A DNA stretch of 64,000 nucleotides from Morinoia aosen. Its lineage: Eukaryota > Arthropoda > Malacostraca > Amphipoda > Talitridae. The stretch is taken from contig CM059570.1 of the NCBI GenBank assembly GCA_030386875.1, forward strand, positions 34,587,422 to 34,651,421. The letters are read 5' to 3'. Of the stretch, positions 5,530 through 53,391 are shown one piece after another. The translations under genes were made by a program, and so were the position numbers. Below the pieces are notes generated by a model. That model ran no database searches. It saw nothing but the letters and a program-made list of their open reading frames with translations, and was not told where the DNA came from. Every line of letters begins with the position of its first letter. The stretch's first letter is position 1.

Positions 5530-6355
5530 CCATGGAAATAAACCGAAAAGAATAGTTTTTTCGTCACGGTCCTCCAACGTCGCCCTAACGAGCCACTCCG
5601 TCACGCTCTGAGACGGACAGACACACTCTCAGACGCGCAGCTCAGCCGGTGTGCAACCTTGAAGAAAGCCGTTCATAAAATTCACGCAACAACACTAACA
5701 AACGGTACAAGGCGATGATCATTTCTTTCCATCTTGCTTCCGTAGCTCGAACAAGCCGTTCATAAATTCCCGAGAATACACTGACAAAAGAAATAAGCCA
5801 ATGATTATTCCTTTACATCTGGCTTCCGTAGCTCGAACAAGCCGTTCATAAAATTCCCGTGAATACACTGACAAACGAAATAAACCAATGATTATTCCTT
5901 TCCATCTGGCTTCCGTAGCTCGAACAAGCCGTTCATAAAGTTTCTGAAAATACACCTACAAACAATATAAACCAATGATTATCTCTTTCCATCTGGCTTC
6001 CGCAGGTCGAACAAGCCGTTCATAAAATTCCAGGGAACAAACGGACAAATAATATAAACCGATGAGCATTTTTTCCATCTGGTTTCCGTAACCTTGGAGA
6101 AAGTAGTTAATAAAAGCCGCATAAATTCACTAACGAACGTGACAAACCATTAAATATATCTTGTTTCTAGTTTCCAAAGCTCTGGAGAAGCTGTTCATAA
6201 AATTCACGCAAATATCCGAGCAAATGGAACGAACCATTGTTATTTATCTCCTAAGGTTTTCGCAGTTTGACGAGAGTTGTTCATATAATTCACAAAAATC
6301 CAATAGCAAATGGTCTAAACCAATAAAAGTTTCCTTCACTCTTGTCGGCAGAAGT
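5530..6355. repeat. 87-bp tandem array, about 8-9 diverged copies
   Basis: Copies share a core around TTCCGTAGCTCGAACAAGCC followed by GTTCATAAAATTC, then a segment like AATAAACCAATGATTATTCC. The four central copies (about 5735-6080) are closest to each other and both edges decay. A still more diverged copy seems to lie at 5530-5610, seen because the minus frame repeats an RLVRATE...IIIGLF peptide pattern. Since 87 is a multiple of three, the minus strand stays open over several copies (5719-5955). That follows from the period and is weak evidence of a protein. Confidence 0.85.
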
Positions 6356-28880: not shown

Positions 28881-29351
28881 TTTTTTGGTAAAACATTTCA
28901 TTGTTGCTTAAGGAATAAAAGGGGGATGATTATTGTGTGAAGCAACAAAATTGTTATCAAGTGCTGTTGATAAACGATCAATGGGGATGAAGACGTAGAA
29001 ATTTTAGTCCTGACAAGCAACCAAAAATAGTTTGGACCATAAGAGAAAATTGGTTAAACTAGGGGAGTCTAGACGTTAAAATGCCAAAATTCACCATAAG
29101 GAAAAATTAAAATTAAGAAGGAAATCTCCGTACAACACAGTCGGAAAACAAATTTTGCGAAATGAATATTTTCTAAAGAAGTTGAGAATAAGAAATTGCA
29201 TCAGTCGGCACTGGTGTTGATAACAGCATGACAACGTTTTGGTTATAGACTAGGGAACAATATCAGGTAGAATGAAGAAAGCTACAAAGAAATAGCTACA
29301 GAAATGGGTCACTGGTAGTATATTTTCGCCTAACACATGCACACACATAAA
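28881..29351. other. No gene recognised
   Basis: AT-rich spacer upstream of the first SINE copy. It ends in CACACA-rich sequence next to the SINE tail. Confidence 0.5.
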
Positions 29352-29617
29352 AAAATGATTTTTTATTCTAATCAAGCCTGATGCAAATCATCGTGTACAT
29401 TGGTTTTTCAAATGCTCCATAACTAACACCAGAACACAATGACGGTTACCCCCGGTCGAGCCGGTATCCATTTCCAACACCTGGGTAGAGTGGGGGAATT
29501 TTGGCTGAGTTCTCGTTTTTCCCATTGGGGAGAATCACCAGGCAGCACTGCCGGGATTCGAACTGCCGACACCTTCCCGTGAAGGGGGCGCTCTTTAACC
29601 ACTCGGCCACTGTGACC
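29352..29617 (-). mobile_element. tRNA-derived SINE, copy 1
   Basis: Minus-strand element of about 265 bp. Its head is a tRNA-like Pol III promoter. The A box TGGCCGAGTGG is the complement of 29599-29609 and the B box GTTCGAATCCC is the complement of 29553-29563. The A box followed by GTTAAAG is like tRNA-Leu or tRNA-Ser. After the head comes a body with ACTCAGCC and TACCCAGG blocks and a 3' part CATCAGGCTTGATTAGAATA leading into an A/T-rich tail. A second copy lies 1.4 kb away in the same orientation. No clear target duplication was found. SINEs need LINE enzymes in trans, and none is encoded here. Confidence 0.82.
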
Positions 29618-30740
29618 ACGGTGATGATCTTATACATTTTTCATGGCTTATACTTTTTAGATTTCAACATTATTTTGTGCCCGCTATATATTTTTTAATG
29701 CTACATATATGCGCATCACGAATCAAACGATAAGCTGGGAATGCTCACAGTAATTTTAGACCCGTCATTTCTGTAACAACATTCCAAGGCACTTTCTGAG
29801 CTTCATAAAAGACATGAGTCAAGTCTCCAGTCACCGAATACCTCTCTGACATACGTTAATTGAATCATTGAGTGTTTATCGCTTGATCAATGGCTAGAAA
29901 AAATCAAAGAACCTTTACAACTTCGAAATCCTATTCAGGGTTGACCAAAAAACATCTATTGAGTGCCAATCAAAGGTTAATTCTTTATCGTGCTATTACT
30001 GAAGGGAAATAATGGTTAATTGAGCTCATAAATTCTTCTACCCTCGTCATTCTCTCAGAATGAATGGAACAGAAAATATAGGTTGTACGTCCATGAACTA
30101 TATAATCATTCTGTTGAAGTTAGGGAACGTAAATTATCGAGCGTTTCCAATGCACAATTTAAGGCCTTAGGATGTACGTATTGAAAAAGGTCTCGCTAAA
30201 ACTGTGCCAAATGAAGAATCTTTATAGGAGGGGGATAGTGCAGCCTTAACCAGTCATGAAATCATCTCAGACCTCACTTACAACAGGCTGCAGCAAAAAA
30301 CATTCCACTGCAAGTGAATAGTGTTTGTCACGTGCGTCAATTCCTTAACACATCGGACGTAGGAAATTTTCATCATCATGCTGCTGAGCGACCAGTAGTC
30401 ACATACTCAATTTTTATAAATATATACTTAATCAAAGCTAAATAGAGGTACGATCCTAGAAATGTTTACTATTTTTTATATTTCTCCCTACAATTGACTT
30501 TAAATTTAAGTTGAATATTGAACTTCAGTTGAGCCCATCGCAGTCAAGTGTTAAGACACAATACTTAAGTAAATGGAAGCTGCTGTTGGACTTGCTCTTA
30601 GATGCTTGATCGGTAACGCATTGACGTACGGTAACGTTGAGTGAGGCAGCTCGCCTCACTCAACGATACGCTTCAGCACTCGGCATCTGTGTGCTGTCAC
30701 ACCCAAATACTGCGTCGCATTTTGTTTTGAGATGAAAAGA
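29618..30740. other. No gene recognised
   Basis: AT-rich DNA between two same-orientation SINE copies. A short inverted word pair, GAGTGAGGCAGC and GCCTCACTCAAC, occurs at 30638-30665 and could form a small hairpin. Confidence 0.5.
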
Positions 30741-30989
30741 TGTTTTTATTTCAATCTAGCCTGATGCATATCATCTTGTATATTGGTTTTTCGAATACCT
30801 TAAAACTAACACCAGGATTCAATGACGGTTACTCCCAGTCAAGCCGGTACCCATTTCCGATACCTGGGTAAGGTGGGGAATTGTGGCTGAGTTCTCCCTT
30901 TTCCGGAATCCCTGGGCGGCTCTGCCGGGATTCGAACTGCTGACACCTTCCAGTGAAGGGCGCGTTCTTAACCGCTCGACCAAGGTGAC
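30741..30989 (-). mobile_element. tRNA-derived SINE, copy 2
   Basis: Minus-strand copy of the SINE at 29352, collinear over its whole length. The A box TGGTCGAGCGG is the complement of 30972-30982 and the B box GTTCGAATCCC of 30927-30937. The shared blocks GAACTCAGCC, TTACCCAGGTA and CATCAGGCTAGATTGAAATA appear in the same order. Differences are scattered substitutions and small gaps, so the two copies were inserted separately rather than recently duplicated. Confidence 0.82.
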
Positions 30990-33157: not shown

Positions 33158-33740
33158 TAGGGTTTCAAAATACTGAATAATTCGCAAGCTCAAACGGAGT
33201 TTAAAAATTTGACATGTTTGAGAATTTGGGCTAACAGAACATCAACAATGCAAACCTGACGTGTAATTTTGGAACATAAAGTTCCGTTGTTCTACGGTTT
33301 TTAAAATCTTAAGTCTCGAATTCGTTTTCAGTCATGAACATTACGCAACATGCTGTCCACTCCATAATTTGCGGGGATAAATGGCGCAAATCTTGCCGTC
33401 GTAGTGGTGATGTACTGCTCCAGATAGGCCCGCGAATTATTTTAACGTCATGACACATCATATCAATTTATTTAGTTAAGTAAATGTTAATCATCACAAA
33501 ATCGACAAAGACTCGTACTCAGTAGGGAATGCTCACATTATCCATAGTGAATACGATCCAATAGAGATACCTTTATTCCTATTTAGTTTTGGTTTAACTC
33601 ATCACATTCCCAAACGTCTACAAGCAAATTCTGGAACTTCTGAAAAAATGCTAGTTTTCACCGACAAAGAACGTTTCTAAAACGTCGCCCTCAATACCCG
33701 AGATAAATATATGCTACGAGCATTGAAATACTGCTCCCCC
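33158..33740. other. No gene recognised
   Basis: AT-rich spacer with no open frame, motif or repeat that I can support. Confidence 0.45.
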
Positions 33741-34248
33741 GATTAAGCCCCATTAAAGAACGTTGATCACATGTATCAGCACCGAATAATCCGCATTTAA
33801 ATACGTTGACCATTAATCTCAGCACCAAATAATCCTCATTAGAGTACGTTGCCCAAATATATCAACACCGAATAATCCCCATTAAAGTACGTTAACCATG
33901 TACATCAGCACCGAATAATCTCCATTAAAGTACGTTGGCCATATATCAGCACCGAATAATCCCCATTAAAGTACGTTGGCCATTTATATCAGCACCGAAT
34001 AATCCCCAATAAAGTACGTCGGCCATGTATATCAGCACCAAATAATCCCCAATAAAGTACGTTGGCCATGTATATCAGCACCGAATAATCCCCATTAAAG
34101 TACGTTGGCCATGTACATCAGCACCAAATAATCCCCATTAAGTACGTTGGCCATGTATATCAGCACCGAATAATCCCCATTAAAGTACGTTGGCCATTTA
34201 TATCAGCACTGAATAATCCCCATTAAAGTACGTTGGCCATATATCAGC
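33741..34248. repeat. 43-bp tandem array, 12 copies
   Basis: The unit runs ACCGAATAATCCCCATTAAA, GTACGTTGGCCATGTATATC, AGC. The first three copies are diverged and the inner copies are almost identical. Short variants lack two bases in the TATATA part (copies 5 and 12). Graded decay at the left edge with homogeneous inner copies is typical of unequal exchange. The period is not a multiple of three and I see no coding role. Confidence 0.95.
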
Positions 34249-42675: not shown

Positions 42676-44789
42676 CGGCCAAATTGGAAAATTTTAGTCT
42701 GAATAAAGGCTTATTTGTTAACTTTGATCGCTACATCAAATCAAGGAAGCTACCACCCGGCTAGAGTCCTTGACTTCCAGAGATGTGACGGACAGATGTG
42801 ACGTTACAACCTATTTTAAAGCAATCATTAGATTGAATGCTATAGGTGAATGGATACACATGTTCACGCTTTGCACCTTCGTAGTGAGATGATTTGTCTC
42901 GTGTTCAGAGCTCTCGCTGACAGTTGTTGTTAACATGCTGGTGTGTTGGTGCGCTTTAGTGATTGTGTTCTTTATTTAAAGAACTACTACCTATAACCAA
43001 TAATCCTAGCTCACACTTCTTGTAGATCTTGGGCTCATACGTAGTTCACTCGTAGTTTTAAAACTTTATCCCATAGAATCGGATTTTCTGCTGTAAAATT
43101 TTCCCTAAGAACAACGAACTCGTAATCTGTCACAGCAAACTGCACACAAAACCAAATTAAAGCAAGTGCTACTTCTTTGCAGTCACGCATGGACGGTGAA
43201 ATATATTTTTTCTAGCAACGTCTCCTATTTAATTATCCCTAAGCAATGACCCAAAACTCTTTAATGAAATTCTCATTATTTCATGGAAATATTGGTTCGT
43301 AAAAATTAATTTCTTTACCGAAAGGATACGAACTAAAGTACTCACGAGTAAAGTGGTATACGCTACCTGGTGTAAATTATTAATGCCACGCGCAGGCATT
43401 CGATAAAATAATGACAATGTCACGATACCGCTATTTCGATTTATTCTCTTTATTTATTACAAATCGACCGTATAATTCTGTAATTAAAGAATAGTTTTAA
43501 AATTACTTGAGCTTCTAATTCTTGCTCATGTCACTATTCAACATCAGAAATTTCATACAAAAGTTCGCGCCATAAATTTCTTTATTTTCCTCTGCATTTT
43601 ATCAAAGCAGTGTATTTTGGGACCCACCAAGAAGAAAATCTTTGCGTATTTCCATGGTTGGAAAACCCTCAGACGCTTGCTGTAATCCTCACTTGGAACA
43701 AGCCCCTGGTGGTAATTGGATAGCAAATTGGCAGCATGCACGTCGATGGGACATCTATTGGCTGCTGATGCGAGTACTCGCACCGTGAGCTTAACACGCA
43801 ATGCCGGGGAAATGTTTACGAAGACCATGTTCCGGCAGCAAGCCTGACCGACACTTCTGAACAATTCTAACTTTACACGTAAAATAATGGGCGAGGATTG
43901 CTATTTCTATACACTTTGATAGCTTCATCGGGCGTTTGGACTGTTCTTGCTGGTATCCATCTTGAATAGGGTAGGGCAAAAAATATGTACTAAACAACTC
44001 GAGAAGTTTAATTTCCTTCAACACATAGCAGGGTTTATATTTTTCTATGTTATCAGTTTCACACTTACTTCTGAAATATAGTATTGTCAGTTATTTTGTG
44101 AACTCTGAAATTTTCCCCTATTGTCACTTACACTGGCTGTTCACAAAATGGATTCTTTGTTGAAGAGAATTTGTCGTTTTTGAGAGTCTGGAATGTGATC
44201 GCACACAGGACAAGGAGGATGTCATAAATCTTTAATGCCTGGGCAATGAAATATAAGGGATGTATTTACGGCTTAGACTTTCTATTCTCCCTACTGAATA
44301 TGAGGGGCTTGTAAATTCTTGATTACGATTTTGTGCGTTGAATCATAACTTCTTCCCAATTGTCGTAAATATTTGGTCGAAGTAATTCTCAACCGGTGCC
44401 CATTTTAAATGGAGATGCTGCAACTCTAGATTTATAAATTAAGGAAGAGATCGTCGGATCTGTGAGGTTATTTTTATATATTTCTATACATTGTTATTAA
44501 TATTTAGAGAATACTAACATGACAGATATATGTGAAATGAATAACGAGCGCAAAAAGTTACCCCTACAGAGAAGTGGAGGCCTCTTTGTGCTTGGAATGC
44601 AAGGCAGGATCTGGACAATGACTGCGGAGCTGGTTTTGACAAGCATGAACGAATTATTGGGAGCTGCTGGAAATTCAAGCATTTTCGCATTCAAATCAGA
44701 TTTGCATGAGTTGTTCGATGCCTGTGTAAATACTAACGCCCGACGCAAAACTTATGCATCCCAGCGAACGACATTAATGCAGTTTATTC
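42676..44789. other. No gene recognised
   Basis: A minus frame at 43553-43864 (103 codons) is GC-balanced between about 43650 and 43830 and could be an old coding fragment. I recognise no family and find no convincing splice sites. Elsewhere the sequence is AT-rich. Confidence 0.4.
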
Positions 44790-45085
44790 GTGAAACCAAA
44801 CGGGTGAAATGATGCTGATGTGAGTCCAAACAAGCCATATGGAGCTGGTGTGAATCCAAACGATTTAAATAAAGCTGGTGTAGATTCAAACAAGCCATAT
44901 GAAGCAGGAGTGAACCCAAACAAGTCATACGAAGTTGTTGTACATTCAAAAAAGTTAAAGGAAGCTGGTGAAAATTCAAACGATTTATATGAAGCTGGCG
45001 TGAATCCAAACGTGTGAAATGATACTGGTGTCAATCCAAAGGAGTTACCTGGAGCTGATGTAATCGGAACGAGTGACACGAAATT
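44790..45085. repeat. 30-bp tandem array, about 9 copies
   Basis: The unit is TGTGAATCCAAACGATTTAT then ATGAAGCTGG. All copies keep a strict 30-base length with 15-30% substitutions. Plus translation gives ten-residue repeats (AGVNPNDLYE type) in one frame from 44820 to 45017, and the minus strand is open too. Uniform spacing with ten codons per unit could reflect a former repetitive protein, but stops in the first and eighth units and the lack of flanking coding sequence argue for a minisatellite. Confidence 0.88.
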
Positions 45086-46766
45086 CAAGCTGCTCATTTG
45101 AGAGGATGCGAATAAGCCAGCATCTCTAGACGTGGTTCATGTAGCGCGTTAGTAAAGTGTGTGCCACGTGGTAGAACGTTAATAAAACAGCATTATTGCA
45201 GTAGATCGTGACACGGATGTCAGGATCAGAAGCAGCATGACCTTCCAGTCAATGCCAGAGAGGCAACTCGAGTCTACACAGCACGGGAGGAGCGCCTCCT
45301 GCACACGTCTGCTTCTCTGGCCCGTCTTGCAAAAATCTTCCGCACGAGCGGTTCAGGCTCGTCAAGTCACGAATGGAAATGATGATACCATGGAAATATG
45401 CGTGAGAATTGATACCATAGTTTGATTTTAGCACTCCGATGTCAGTTTGCTGATGATGGTAAACGTAATAAATGTTTGACTCGCATTCGAACTAAATGAG
45501 TCAGATTAACATAAAAATGCTTATCTATAGTTTTTGTATCTTTGTGATTACACCTTTTCTATAACTTTTTTAGGTTAGTTACTTAAATTATATTTGATTT
45601 TTTAATGTAGTCCAATCTTAAAGTGAATTTTCATTTATTGGTGCATAGTCACACCAACATCAAGTGCCTAGATGCTGATCACGGTAATCAATTTTAATGC
45701 ATATAAACTTTTGCCTTCACAAAGTAGAATAGTTATTTGATCTTTGTTTCTCGGAGCAACTTTGAACTATAAGCATCACAGGAAAACCAAGACGATAGCG
45801 TGGTGAGATGCTGCGCCGCGACCTAGAGAGTGCGACGCAGCGCCTGAACTTTGGCTGCACGATGAATTTAGCCCGAATTGTAGCACGACTCAAAACTTCC
45901 TTTCCCGCTTCCTGTTCTGCACCCTGTCCTAGCAAAAATCAGTGCATCTAATACCTTAAAACAGACTGCACCCAAAGACGTTTACTCATCTTTTTGCGAG
46001 ACTAAAATGAGAGGAGAGTATAGGTGCTGAACACGGTGCTGCTTAGAAGAACTCCTATGGAAACTGGAATTACAATCATGAAATGTCAATCTTTCCCAAG
46101 ACCTAAAATACATGTAGTGCTCTCTATTGTTCTTTGTCATGTCAGAGAGCATGGAGGCATAATAAAACATTAATGACTTCCACAGATGCGTCTTCCTACT
46201 GAAAGGATGAATCCAATATCCTGTTCAAATAACCTTTGTGAAGCGTGGATCAACACATGGCACTCGATGACTCGTTTAAGTTGTCTGTTTGAAGAGTCCA
46301 AGTGTTTTAACCCGATATCGTAAGTATTTTTGTAATCATATTACCGTTGTCACAACCAACGTCATTAGACTGGGTAGGTCAGATAGTCTCCGATACCAAA
46401 ATGAGGTAGAAACTGTCATTCGACAGTAAACTTTAAAAACTGCATTAGAGAATAGATTTAACACGATATACAATATCTTAAGGTAACTTTTAAAAGAGGA
46501 TCATAAAGTCCTATTGGGCGTTAGAAGGTCAAAATTTTCAAATCATGGTATTTAAATGTTAACACATGCATACACTAAGCCCTGCAGTATGAACTTAATT
46601 ATACGCTGTGGAATCGTTTAACGGCCGAATGGGATGCCATATTTTGCCTTCATTAGTGCCATGTCTTTTTGGTAGTTCCGCCCCTGAATGTACAGCATCT
46701 GCCGATGTTACTGAACACACTTTGTATTCATCGCAGTTCATTTGTGTGCATTCTCAATTTGTGTGG
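45086..46766. other. No gene recognised
   Basis: GC-balanced patches lie at 45235-45365 and 45800-45930. Both have open frames on the minus strand, but no recognised family and no paired splice signals. A CACGTGG word occurs at 45165. Confidence 0.4.
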
Positions 46767-48671: not shown

Positions 48672-49908
48672 TTTTTGCATTGTAGCTTCTAATTATAAGA
48701 TATTTAGCCATCTCGGATAGAAAAAGAAATTTCCCAGTCTGTTTTACGTTTGCATGTAAAAAGGGGTGGGTCATATTCAACGAAATACATGCAAAAACTG
48801 CACACATCTGTCAGGAAGTTAAGGTCTTCCATGAGTGTATAATCAATCGTCCAATGCATGTAGTGGCCTAGGCGGTTACAGAGACGCAGCGACAGCACCA
48901 AGTCTAATGTGTAGTGCTACACCCCGATGTAACTAATGTTACTTCCAGGTTGTTACAAATGTGTTACGCTACAGTACCTGGGTCCGTGGAGGTCTTAATA
49001 AGTGTATGGTTCATTGGAGCCTCCACAGGTGCAGGGAACTCCATAGCACCTTGCACACAACTGGATCCCATTTGTTGATCACATAACGGAGATCTAAAGG
49101 AAATTTAGTAAGTGTTGCAGGATGTTGTGAGCGTTTTCATAATTTTTGTCTACGACTGCATTACAACGATTTATCTTTACATCGTATATCCTAATTTTAC
49201 GCAATTATCATGTGAGGAGAGAAAGATTGTTATTCATATATTAAAGTTCTTAAATACAATAATCAATTATTCTACGTATCATCCTGCAACTTCAATTTGA
49301 CGACCGTCTAACACAAATGTGAGATTCTTAAAGTCTCTTGAAATTAAAATATAATGTGATTGGTAAAAAACGCTTTAATTAAATGTTTTTACAAAAAGCT
49401 TGTGAGCATAAATTTTGATTTTACTGGAAATTTTAATTTTCAAATTTTACCGTCAATCTGACAGTTGAAAACCAATCCAGTCTTATTACAAGTTATATTT
49501 ATTTCAGTAGTACTGTCTTAAATGAAAGCTTAAATGAATAATGGTACTATTAGTAAAACGAACAAAAAATCTTAAATTTCCAAATCCGTCGTGTAAATAC
49601 TTTATTAAGCAAATTTTATTTTATCCTTTCAATAATGCTAGTCTAAATACTGCTACCTCAACAGTCTTACAGTTTTTCAAAGCTACACAGTAATCTTTAT
49701 AGCAAAGTATAAAATAATCGTTATTTTGTGCTCGTTTTTCATTCTCAACTTTATACTCAGCAGCATTACTGTAAATTCCTCATTAGAGCCAATTGTACAC
49801 TTTGCTCATACCTTTAGCGTTTTACTTTCAAATACTTTGGCTATAGGTGCCTCGACTTATTAAACGTGTCAGACAAAATTGAGATATATGTAAAATTTTT
49901 GTCCAAAG
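48672..49908. other. No gene recognised
   Basis: AT-rich, with a GC-balanced patch at 48870-49080. No supported feature precedes the minisatellite. Confidence 0.5.
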
Positions 49909-52440
49909 CCCACATAACACCCACAGGTTCAGGGCCCACACAACACCCACAGGTTCAGGGCCCACACAACACCCACAGGTTCAGGGCCCACTCAACACCC
50001 ACAAATTCAGGGTCCACACAACACCCACAAGTTCAGGGCCCACTCAACACCCACAAGTTCAGGGTCCACACAACACCCACAGGTTCAGGGCCCACTCAAC
50101 ACCCACAGGTTCAGGGCCCACTCAACACCCACAAGTTCAGGGCCCACACAACACCCACAGGTTCAGGGCCCACTCAACACCCACAAGTTCAGGGTCCACA
50201 CAACGACTACAGGTTCAGGGCCCACACAACACCCACAAGTTCAGGGCCCACACAACACCCACAGGTTCAGGGCCCACTCAACACCCACAAGTTCAGGGTC
50301 CACACAACAACTACAGGTTCAGGGCCCACACAACACCCACAAGTTCAGGGCCCACACAACACCCACAGGTTCAGGGCCCACTCAACACCCACAGGTTCAG
50401 GGTCCACACAACAACTACAGGTTCAGGGCCCACACAACACCCACAAGTTCAGGGCCCACACAACACCCACAGGTTCAGGGCCCACTCAACACCCACAAGT
50501 TCAGGGTCCACACAACAACTACAGGTTCAGGGCCCACACAACAACTACAGGTTCAGGGCTCACACAGCACCCACAGGTTCAGGGCCCACACAACACCCAC
50601 AGGTTCAGGGCCCACACAACACCCACAGGTTCAGGGCCCACACAACACCCACAAGTTCAGGGCCCACTCAACACCCACAAGTTCAGGGTCCACACAACAA
50701 CTACAGGTTCAGGGCCCACACAACACCCACAGGTTCAGGGCCCACTCAACACCCACAAGTTCAGGGTCCACACAACAACTACAGGTTCAGGGCCCACACA
50801 ACAACTACAGGTTCAGGGCCCACTCAACACCCACAGGTTCAGGGCCCACTCAACACCCACAGGTTCAGGGCCCACACAACAACTACAGGTTCAGGGCCCA
50901 CTCAACACCCACAAGTTCAGGGTCCACACAACACCCACAGGTTCAGGGCCCACTCAACACCCACAGGTTCAGGGCCCACACAACACCCACAGGTTCAGGG
51001 CCCACTCAACACCCACAGGTTCAGGGCCCACACAACACCCACAGGTTCAGGGTCCACACAACACCCACAGGTTCAGGGCCCACACAACACCCACAGGTTC
51101 AGGGCCCACACAACACCCACAGGTTCAGGGCCCACTCAACACCCACAAGTTCAGGGTCCACACAACACCCACAGGTTCAGGGCCCACTCAACACCCACAA
51201 GTTCAGGGTCCACACAACACCCACAAGTTCAGGGCCCACTCAACACCCACAGGTTCAGGGCCCACACAACAACTACAGGTTCAGGGCCCACACAACAACT
51301 ACAGGTTCAGGGCTCACACAGCACCCACAGGTTCAGGGCTCACACAACACCCACAAGTTCAGGGCCCACTCAACACCCACAGGTTCAGGGCCCACACAAC
51401 AACTACAGGTTCAGGGCCCACACAACACCCACAGGTTCAGGGCTCACACAACACCCACAAGTTCAGGGCCCACTCAACACCCACAAGTTCAGGGTCCACA
51501 CAACAACTACAGGTTCAGGGCCCACACAACACCCACAGGTTCAGGGCCCACACAACACCCACAAGTTCAGGGCCCACACAACAACTACAGGTTCAGGGCT
51601 CACACAACACCCACAGGTTCAGGGCCCACACAACACCCACAAGTTCAGGGCCCACACAACAACTACAGGTTCAGGGCCCACACAACACCCACAAGTTCAG
51701 GGCCCACACAACACCCACAGGTTCAGGGCCCACACAACACCCACAAGTTCAGGGCCCACACAACACCCACAAGTTCAGGGTCCACACAACAACTACAGGT
51801 TCAGGGCCCACACAACAACTACAGGTTCAGGCCCACTCAACACCCACAAGTTCAGGGTCCACACAACAACTACAGGTTCAGGGCCCACACAACACCCACA
51901 AGTTCAGGGTCCACACAACAACTACAGGTTCAGGGCCCACACAACAACTACAGATTCAGGGCCCACTCAACACCCACAAGTTCAGGGTCCACACAACAAC
52001 TACAGGTTCAGGGCCCACACAACACCCACAGGTTCAGGGCCCACACAACACCCACAAGTTCAGGGCCCACACAACAACTACAGGTTCAGGGCCCACACAA
52101 CACCCACAAGTTCAGGGCCCACACAACAACTACAGGTTCAGGTCCCACACAACACCCACAGGTTCAGGGCCCCCACAACACCCATAAGTTCAGGGCCCAC
52201 ACAACAACTACAGGTTCAGGGCCCACACAACACCCACAAGTTCAGGGCCCACACAACAACTACAGGTTCAGGGCCCACACAACACCCACAAGTTCAGGGC
52301 CCACACAACACCCAAATATTCAGGACCAAAAAAAACACCCACACAACACCCAAATATTAAGGACCCAAAGAACACCCACACCACACCCACAGGTTAAGGA
52401 CCCACACAACACCCACATGTTCAGGACCCACACAACCCCA
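49909..52440. repeat. 26-bp minisatellite, roughly 95 copies
   Basis: The unit is CCCACACAACACCCACAGGT then TCAGGG (26 bases). Units vary at four linked positions: CCC/TCC, ACACA/ACTCA, ACCCA/AACTA and AGG/AAG. Recurring combinations follow each other in order, for example an ACTCA...AAG unit ending TCC is usually followed by an AACTA...AGG unit. This suggests higher-order multi-unit duplication. The left boundary is sharp. The right edge decays over about 120 bases (52316-52440). No unit contains a stop in any plus frame, and 26 leaves remainder 2 on division by three. One frame therefore cycles through all three phases and gives a spurious 773-codon ORF (49866-52187) with a 26-residue, 78-base period. 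A single-base deletion near 51830 does not break the ORF, which fits absence of coding constraint. Confidence 0.97.
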
Positions 52441-52534
52441 CAGACCCCCACCAAAACACCCCGTGTCAGCACGCAGGCCGAGCAGCCCCACACGAGCATC
52501 AAGAAACGCTGGACGGCCAGGTAGCTGCACATAC

Positions 52535-52605
52535 CTGCTGGCCTGACCTTCTGGCGCGTCGGCCCTGACGAACTCCAGACCTGATCTGCTCTTCCGCAGC
52601 CACAT
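52535..52605 (-). CDS. Candidate internal exon, unrecognised gene (minus strand)
   Basis: A GC-rich segment on the minus strand ends in a strong donor, GCCAGCAG|GTATGT (intron begins at 52534). All three frames stay open over this short distance. Readings include FVRADAPEGQAS and DQVWSSSGPTRQKVRPA, so the frame is undecided. The 5' boundary is uncertain: AG at 52588-52587 after GAAGAGC, or an earlier TTAG near 52620, would both serve. It lies on the same strand and in the right order after the candidate exons at 54305-54442 and 53392-53586. If it is an exon, the large 26-bp minisatellite sits inside the following intron. No family is recognised. Confidence 0.3.
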
Positions 52606-53391
52606 AACAATTTACACGTCTAATCATTGTGCCGAAATATCAATGTCCGTATTAAGTGAATGCAAGAATTTGATCTCGGTAGCCTTAACGAAGGTCGTGA
52701 ACTAATGTACGTTTTCAGCAGAGTTATTTCGTTTGAGGTTATTCTTGGTAGAAAAATCTATGTTAAATTAACGTTTGTGTCGTTCAAACTTGCAAATTTT
52801 TTATTATGGATGCTTTATTATAATTTAATTCAGAGTAATAACCCATTAAGGTTACCCGCGTGGTACATAACTTTATCTTCTAGCTCCCCCGTGGGCATTA
52901 TGATTGCTAAATTTTCTCGTTGCCATGGTATATGTTTTGCCGAGAAATAAAATCAACTCCTCAAATAGAGAAGAAACTCAACATTTAGACCTTTCTTTTG
53001 AAGGATAGTGGCAACCTGGAGCCAGGCAGTGTTTGAAGTTCCGATGTCTTAATACAAACAAGCTACTAAAGTCTAAATAACCGTGCGTGATATTCACATG
53101 AACTTTTAACGCAAATATTCCTCTTTAATTGTTATTTTCCATACCGCTTCATACGTTTTAATATTTTGATCTGCCGCAAAGCGGGGCTAAGGCAAGCTGC
53201 CTTGCATCATTGAGTCCTGAGAATGGTAGTACCAAACATTACGCCTCAGCAGTAAACACAGCATGTCCAGTTGATTAACACCAGCGATGCCATGACTCCA
53301 CGTCTCGAAAGGCTGTTCAAGACAGGTTTGCCACGACGCCTCCGCTGCTCCCTGGGCGCAGACACGGACGAACTACGCGCATATTTCTTAC
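52606..53391. other. Spacer or intron between candidate minus-strand exons
   Basis: AT-rich in the first part. A short hairpin word (AAGGCAAGCTGCCTT) occurs near 53190. No RNA or additional exon is visible. Confidence 0.4.

Follow-up and report, generated by a model that had tools for sequence, protein, structure and literature searches.

The 26-bp tandem array described here is, with a probability that we put at about 0.92, a non-coding minisatellite that occupies a single locus in a ~2-Gb genome rich in tandem repeats. The long open reading frame that crosses the array is most likely a by-product of its T-poor strand; we do not judge it to be a gene, and we assign the array neither a product nor a function. 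The array lies in the 64,000-nucleotide stretch of DNA that was analyzed (the window; C15:34587422-34651421 in an assembly of 1.99 Gb and 29 contigs). The features on which the analysis is based are as follows.

49500..49907: left flank, AT-rich and single-copy by search (408 bp matching only itself in the assembly); GC 27-29% at 49201-49800
49866..52187, plus strand: 773-codon ORF with a GTG start, open through the T-poor strand; not judged a gene
49901..52443, plus strand: 26-bp minisatellite of ~97 copies, from TRF and copy-to-copy pairing; consensus GCCCACACAACACCCACAGGTTCAGG
51826..51850, plus strand: the sole 25-bp spacing, one base short, from the anchor spacings; phase shifted, every frame open
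52298..52443, plus strand: degenerate right edge with spacings of 38 and 37 bp and TAA at 52358 and 52395
52444..52610: right flank, GC-rich and single-copy by search (52436-52620, 185 bp, matching only itself); GC 62% at 52401-52600
Repeat peptide of the array (predicted translation): GPTQHPQVQGPHNTHRFRAHTTPTGS

The array as such far exceeds anything expected by chance. TRF reports it at 49908-52443 with a period of 26, 97.7 copies, 88% matches and a score of 3862, which is the highest among the 19 TRF rows in the window and bears out the first-pass annotation, where the array was called the strongest object present. The units run head-to-tail over a length of ~2.5 kb, and the period falls within the 10 to ~100 bp given for minisatellite units in a passage of PMC3152781. 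Pairing of the first copy with the second at 85% places the start of the array at ~49901. Unit spacing was measured from the anchor TT[CA]AGG, of which 96 occurrences give 95 spacings; 92 are 26 bp, and spacings of 25, 37 and 38 bp occur once each. The earlier count of about 95 copies of a 26-base unit is close to these values. Wear affects ~150 bp at the right edge, where there are two more copies of 63 nt with 63% and 76% identity to the reference, and a single copy at the left edge.

The units differ by few base variants, which are common to many units in differing combinations. Neighboring unit types are interdependent (mutual information 1.10 vs. 0.71 ± 0.07; 0 of 2000 shuffles equal), in keeping with a spread of variant units by local turnover, and such a non-random order is as expected when turnover proceeds by blocks. 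A higher-order period is not established, with P = 0.147 for the best global lag (4 units) and P = 0.07 for the best local lag. Replication slippage, unequal exchange and gene conversion are general mechanisms of tandem-repeat change; any of the three may have grown and homogenized the array, in which case they would have acted on blocks of adjoining units. In the features measured, in one assembly, we see no difference from minisatellites: the 26-bp head-to-tail unit, the kilobase length, the few shared variant sites, the non-random order of unit types and the worn edge are all alike.

The plus strand of the array consists of 39% C, 33% A, 17% G and 10.5% T, and at 50001-52000 the GC skew is -0.37 and the AT skew 0.50. 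Both the GC-richness and this strong strand asymmetry are shared with the GC-rich hypervariable minisatellites of the human type. The array could by analogy be a DNA element, either through quadruplexes in its G-rich minus strand or as a recombination hotspot, and the much greater wear at the right edge than at the left, together with the asymmetry, would fit such a role. There are 25 loose quadruplex motifs on the minus strand with loops of up to 12, but no canonical motif with loops of 1-7, and the best 25-nt G4Hunter score of 1.32, compared to a median of 0.76 per 500 bp for the background, is below the background maximum of 1.4. When one three-unit stretch is folded as DNA, neither strand outperforms its shuffles (z -0.48 and -0.56). 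We consider a DNA element very unlikely. A structured RNA or DNA element is rejected on the same folding result and on the Rfam search, in which no family reaches its gathering score in the window; ARAGORN finds no tRNA there.

Turning to the open frames of the minisatellite, the three plus frames extend from stop to stop across the array for 789, 825 and 868 codons. Stop codons are rare because the C- and A-rich strand is poor in T, and all frames are equally open because a period of 26 is indivisible by three, so that each frame cycles through the three unit phases. The plus strand of 49901-52443 contains four stops, all TAA (49915, 52185, 52358 and 52395), with no TAG or TGA, and the minus strand of the array has 148 stops distributed over all three frames. 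It had been claimed that every unit is stop-free in all plus frames. This is nearly so, the exceptions being the first copy, which contains the TAA at 49915, and 3 of the 95 anchored units (starts 52169, 52325 and 52363; stops 52185, 52358 and 52395), which lie toward the right end.

The 773-codon ORF at 49866-52187 reported in the first-pass annotation is confirmed, and its translation shows the 26-residue period. The accompanying expectation that gene finders would report a long protein holds only if GTG is accepted as a start; if ORFs must begin with ATG, just one plus-strand ORF of at least 20 aa touches the array, which is 35 aa long and starts at 52417. Its start codon is the sole plus-strand ATG in the array and is found among the last copies. 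From the preceding stop to 52416, all three plus frames are devoid of ATG, and thus no unspliced in-frame ATG precedes the repeat. An indel near 51830 had been taken, since it leaves the ORF intact, as a sign that the frame is not under selection. The 25-bp spacing from 51826 is indeed present and the ORF continues through it, but the argument about selection is empty: with all three frames open to either side of it, the ORF would survive any indel there.

Given the composition of the array, its freedom from stops is within chance. When the consensus is shuffled and the result tandemized, none of the plus frames contains a stop in 58% of 20,000 cases; for real 26-mers of the window, tandemized in the same way, the numbers are 1159 of 7000 overall and 2163 of 5147 among those with 14-16 G+C. 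In a genome sample of 20 random 10-kb stretches (200 kb; contigs C1-C27, positions 1-38 Mb), arrays were counted by TRF at a period of 9-100 and a length of at least 150 bp, with overlapping rows merged, which yields 21 minisatellites, five of them of ~1 kb or more. The period is not divisible by three in 11 sampled arrays, and in four of these the consensus has one strand on which no frame contains a stop. A single 32-bp satellite, seen in two stretches ~1 Mb apart on C27, accounts for two of the four; the third has a period of 52 but a consensus of 51 letters (L021), and the fourth a 19-bp unit (L034). At least two different sampled arrays thus share the stop-freedom, and one of them is a satellite, hardly a gene. 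The longest open frame in the 21 arrays is 771 codons, and none reaches 868. Where tandem arrays are abundant in a genome, one expects to meet long open frames over T-poor minisatellites. Such a frame should not receive a protein annotation, still less if its start is not ATG.

Two of the sampled satellites are extensive in their own right. The 32-bp satellite fills the whole of its two 10-kb stretches (L017 and L026, at ~16.5 and ~15.5 Mb on C27) and may span a megabase. A 30-bp satellite of ~311 copies nearly fills another 10-kb stretch (L023, at 1.6 Mb on C8) and contains the open frame of 771 codons.

The same open frames could be read as an internal exon of a spliced gene, with the start codon in an upstream exon and a repetitive protein rich in Pro, Thr, Gln and His as the product. 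We give this reading a slimmer chance still than a DNA element. That all three plus frames are open speaks for it, as do an acceptor-like AG at 49817 following 14 pyrimidines out of 18 and a donor-like CAGGTAGCT at 52521 in the right flank, which agrees with the consensus at 7 of 9 positions, sites of both kinds being common by chance. Like protein-coding tandem repeats, the array has a long open frame and a periodic peptide; unlike them, it has a period indivisible by three, lacks an upstream ATG and shows no depletion of stops. With a period of 26, a change of one unit shifts the downstream frame. According to a passage of PMC1273636, 13.9% of polymorphisms in coding repeats are not multiples of three, and the period alone can therefore not rule coding out.

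Selection on the frame was assessed from the changes among units. One of the 15 distinct changes observed in 92 full-length units makes a stop, compared to 5, 6, 8 and 8 of 78 possible changes for the four unit types tried; the count excludes the first copy and those edge copies whose spacing is odd, which together hold three other TAA. Stop-making changes are, in these small numbers, not depleted, and selection against stops is not seen. The synonymous fraction of the 138 deviations from the consensus is 0.21, 0.36 and 0.22 in the three frames. The value of 0.36 belongs to the frame with 1-based position 2 mod 3, which is not that of the 773-codon ORF and which terminates at the TAA at 52358. 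For the excess in this frame, P(max) is 0.013 by unit shuffle, and 0.040 and 0.035 by a Markov and a block null, both of which take neighbors into account; for the range between frames, the corresponding P values are 0.033, 0.080 and 0.074. The excess peaks in units 25-48 (0.57), and one of six variable sites tested is tied to phase (site 19, p 0.029). It is a weak signal for the frame at 2 mod 3 and most likely reflects chance, since turnover is block-wise and common variant sites are few. It is nevertheless the main result against the non-coding reading, and coding keeps some slight weight on this account. With the exception of this one signal, the analysis supports the earlier proposal that the open frame is a by-product of a non-coding minisatellite.

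Pfam searches of the array frames give DUF7642, DUF7246 and DUF6252 above cut-off in all three frames, with 0 or 1 individually significant stretches. We reject these matches as a repeat artifact in which weak repeats are summed, as all frames match and almost none of the stretches is significant alone. The 867-aa array frame, the only one searched against the PDB, has no match at E up to 10. A special form of the exon reading is that the unit is kept stop-free in every frame, whereby gain or loss of a unit would alter the downstream frame without truncation inside the array, giving a length-tuned switch between three C-terminal tails. This we regard as extremely improbable.

The first-pass annotation had suggested looking for the 26-mer on other scaffolds. 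A 78-base probe made of three unit variants gives 55 matches in the assembly, 42 of them here and 13 at three other places with 72-82% identity: C25 at 2.04 Mb (5 rows), C25 at 50.46 Mb (1 row) and C23 at 33.94 Mb (7 rows). No close copy of the array turns up elsewhere in the 1.99-Gb assembly. The periods by TRF at the three places are 21, 24 and 28, the period-28 array also having a 168-bp row. A GTGTTGTGTG-like core is common to their units and the 26-bp unit, with a score that 0 of 300 shuffles per unit equal, and the 21-bp unit on C25 aligns to the 26-bp unit with one mismatch and one 5-bp gap. The three arrays are the best matches of 2 Gb, and their likeness is hence selected. In addition, the assembly search scores only the best candidates and skips very common words, so that it proves neither kinship nor rarity of the array. 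The common core and the 72-82% identity might suggest that a mobile element carries the array, or that it belongs to a family of copied loci. This is the least probable reading of all, since the likeness is that of arrays picked as best matches, both tested flanks match only themselves and the 2-kb flanks match the three loci at no better than E 0.87; a mobile-element origin is rejected on the flank result. An insertion with target-site duplication was considered since CCACATAACA occurs at 49910 and 52600, its sole places in the window; it is not favored, as the repeat unit holds a string that differs by one base and a full copy already starts at 49901.

Two minus-strand ORFs over the right flank of the minisatellite have no Pfam match at E 1. 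On the minus strand at 52479-52532 (54 bases), GC is 94% at the third position vs. 44% at the other two. Among windows outside the array this segment is tied third in the 54-base list and tenth in the 90-base list, and its third-position GC is possibly due to chance; together with the donor-like site in this flank, it counts against the non-coding reading. Elsewhere, the 136 ORFs of at least 70 aa outside the array give two single Pfam matches at E 0.01, the best at 4.9e-4.

An exact 22-mer has 0 matches in viral contigs, and BLAST with the low-complexity filter on finds no match for 52400-52700 in phages or for 49700-52700 in plasmids. A telomere-like repeat was also considered and rejected: two 13-base pieces of the unit and doubled TTAGG or TTAGGG are absent from both strands of four 1,200-base contig ends, a weak test as these ends are probably not true telomeres. 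The array was not found in print when the literature was searched by idea and by the letters of the unit.

Several other repeats are present in the window. Two dispersed copies, at 29347-29616 and 30732-30989, are 80% alike over 270 columns, and their translations presumably resemble those of short interspersed elements. A 30-bp tandem array at 44790-45062, with a period that is a multiple of three, lies within a minus-strand stop-to-stop frame of 120 codons (44774-45136), and the plus strand of the same region has a frame of 69 codons; the Pfam scan took in the former and left out the latter. A 43-bp unit is repeated in 12 copies at 33739-34248. The array at 5666-6291 has an 87-bp unit, for which TRF gives 4.9 copies up to 6090 and which extends to ~6291 by self-BLAST.
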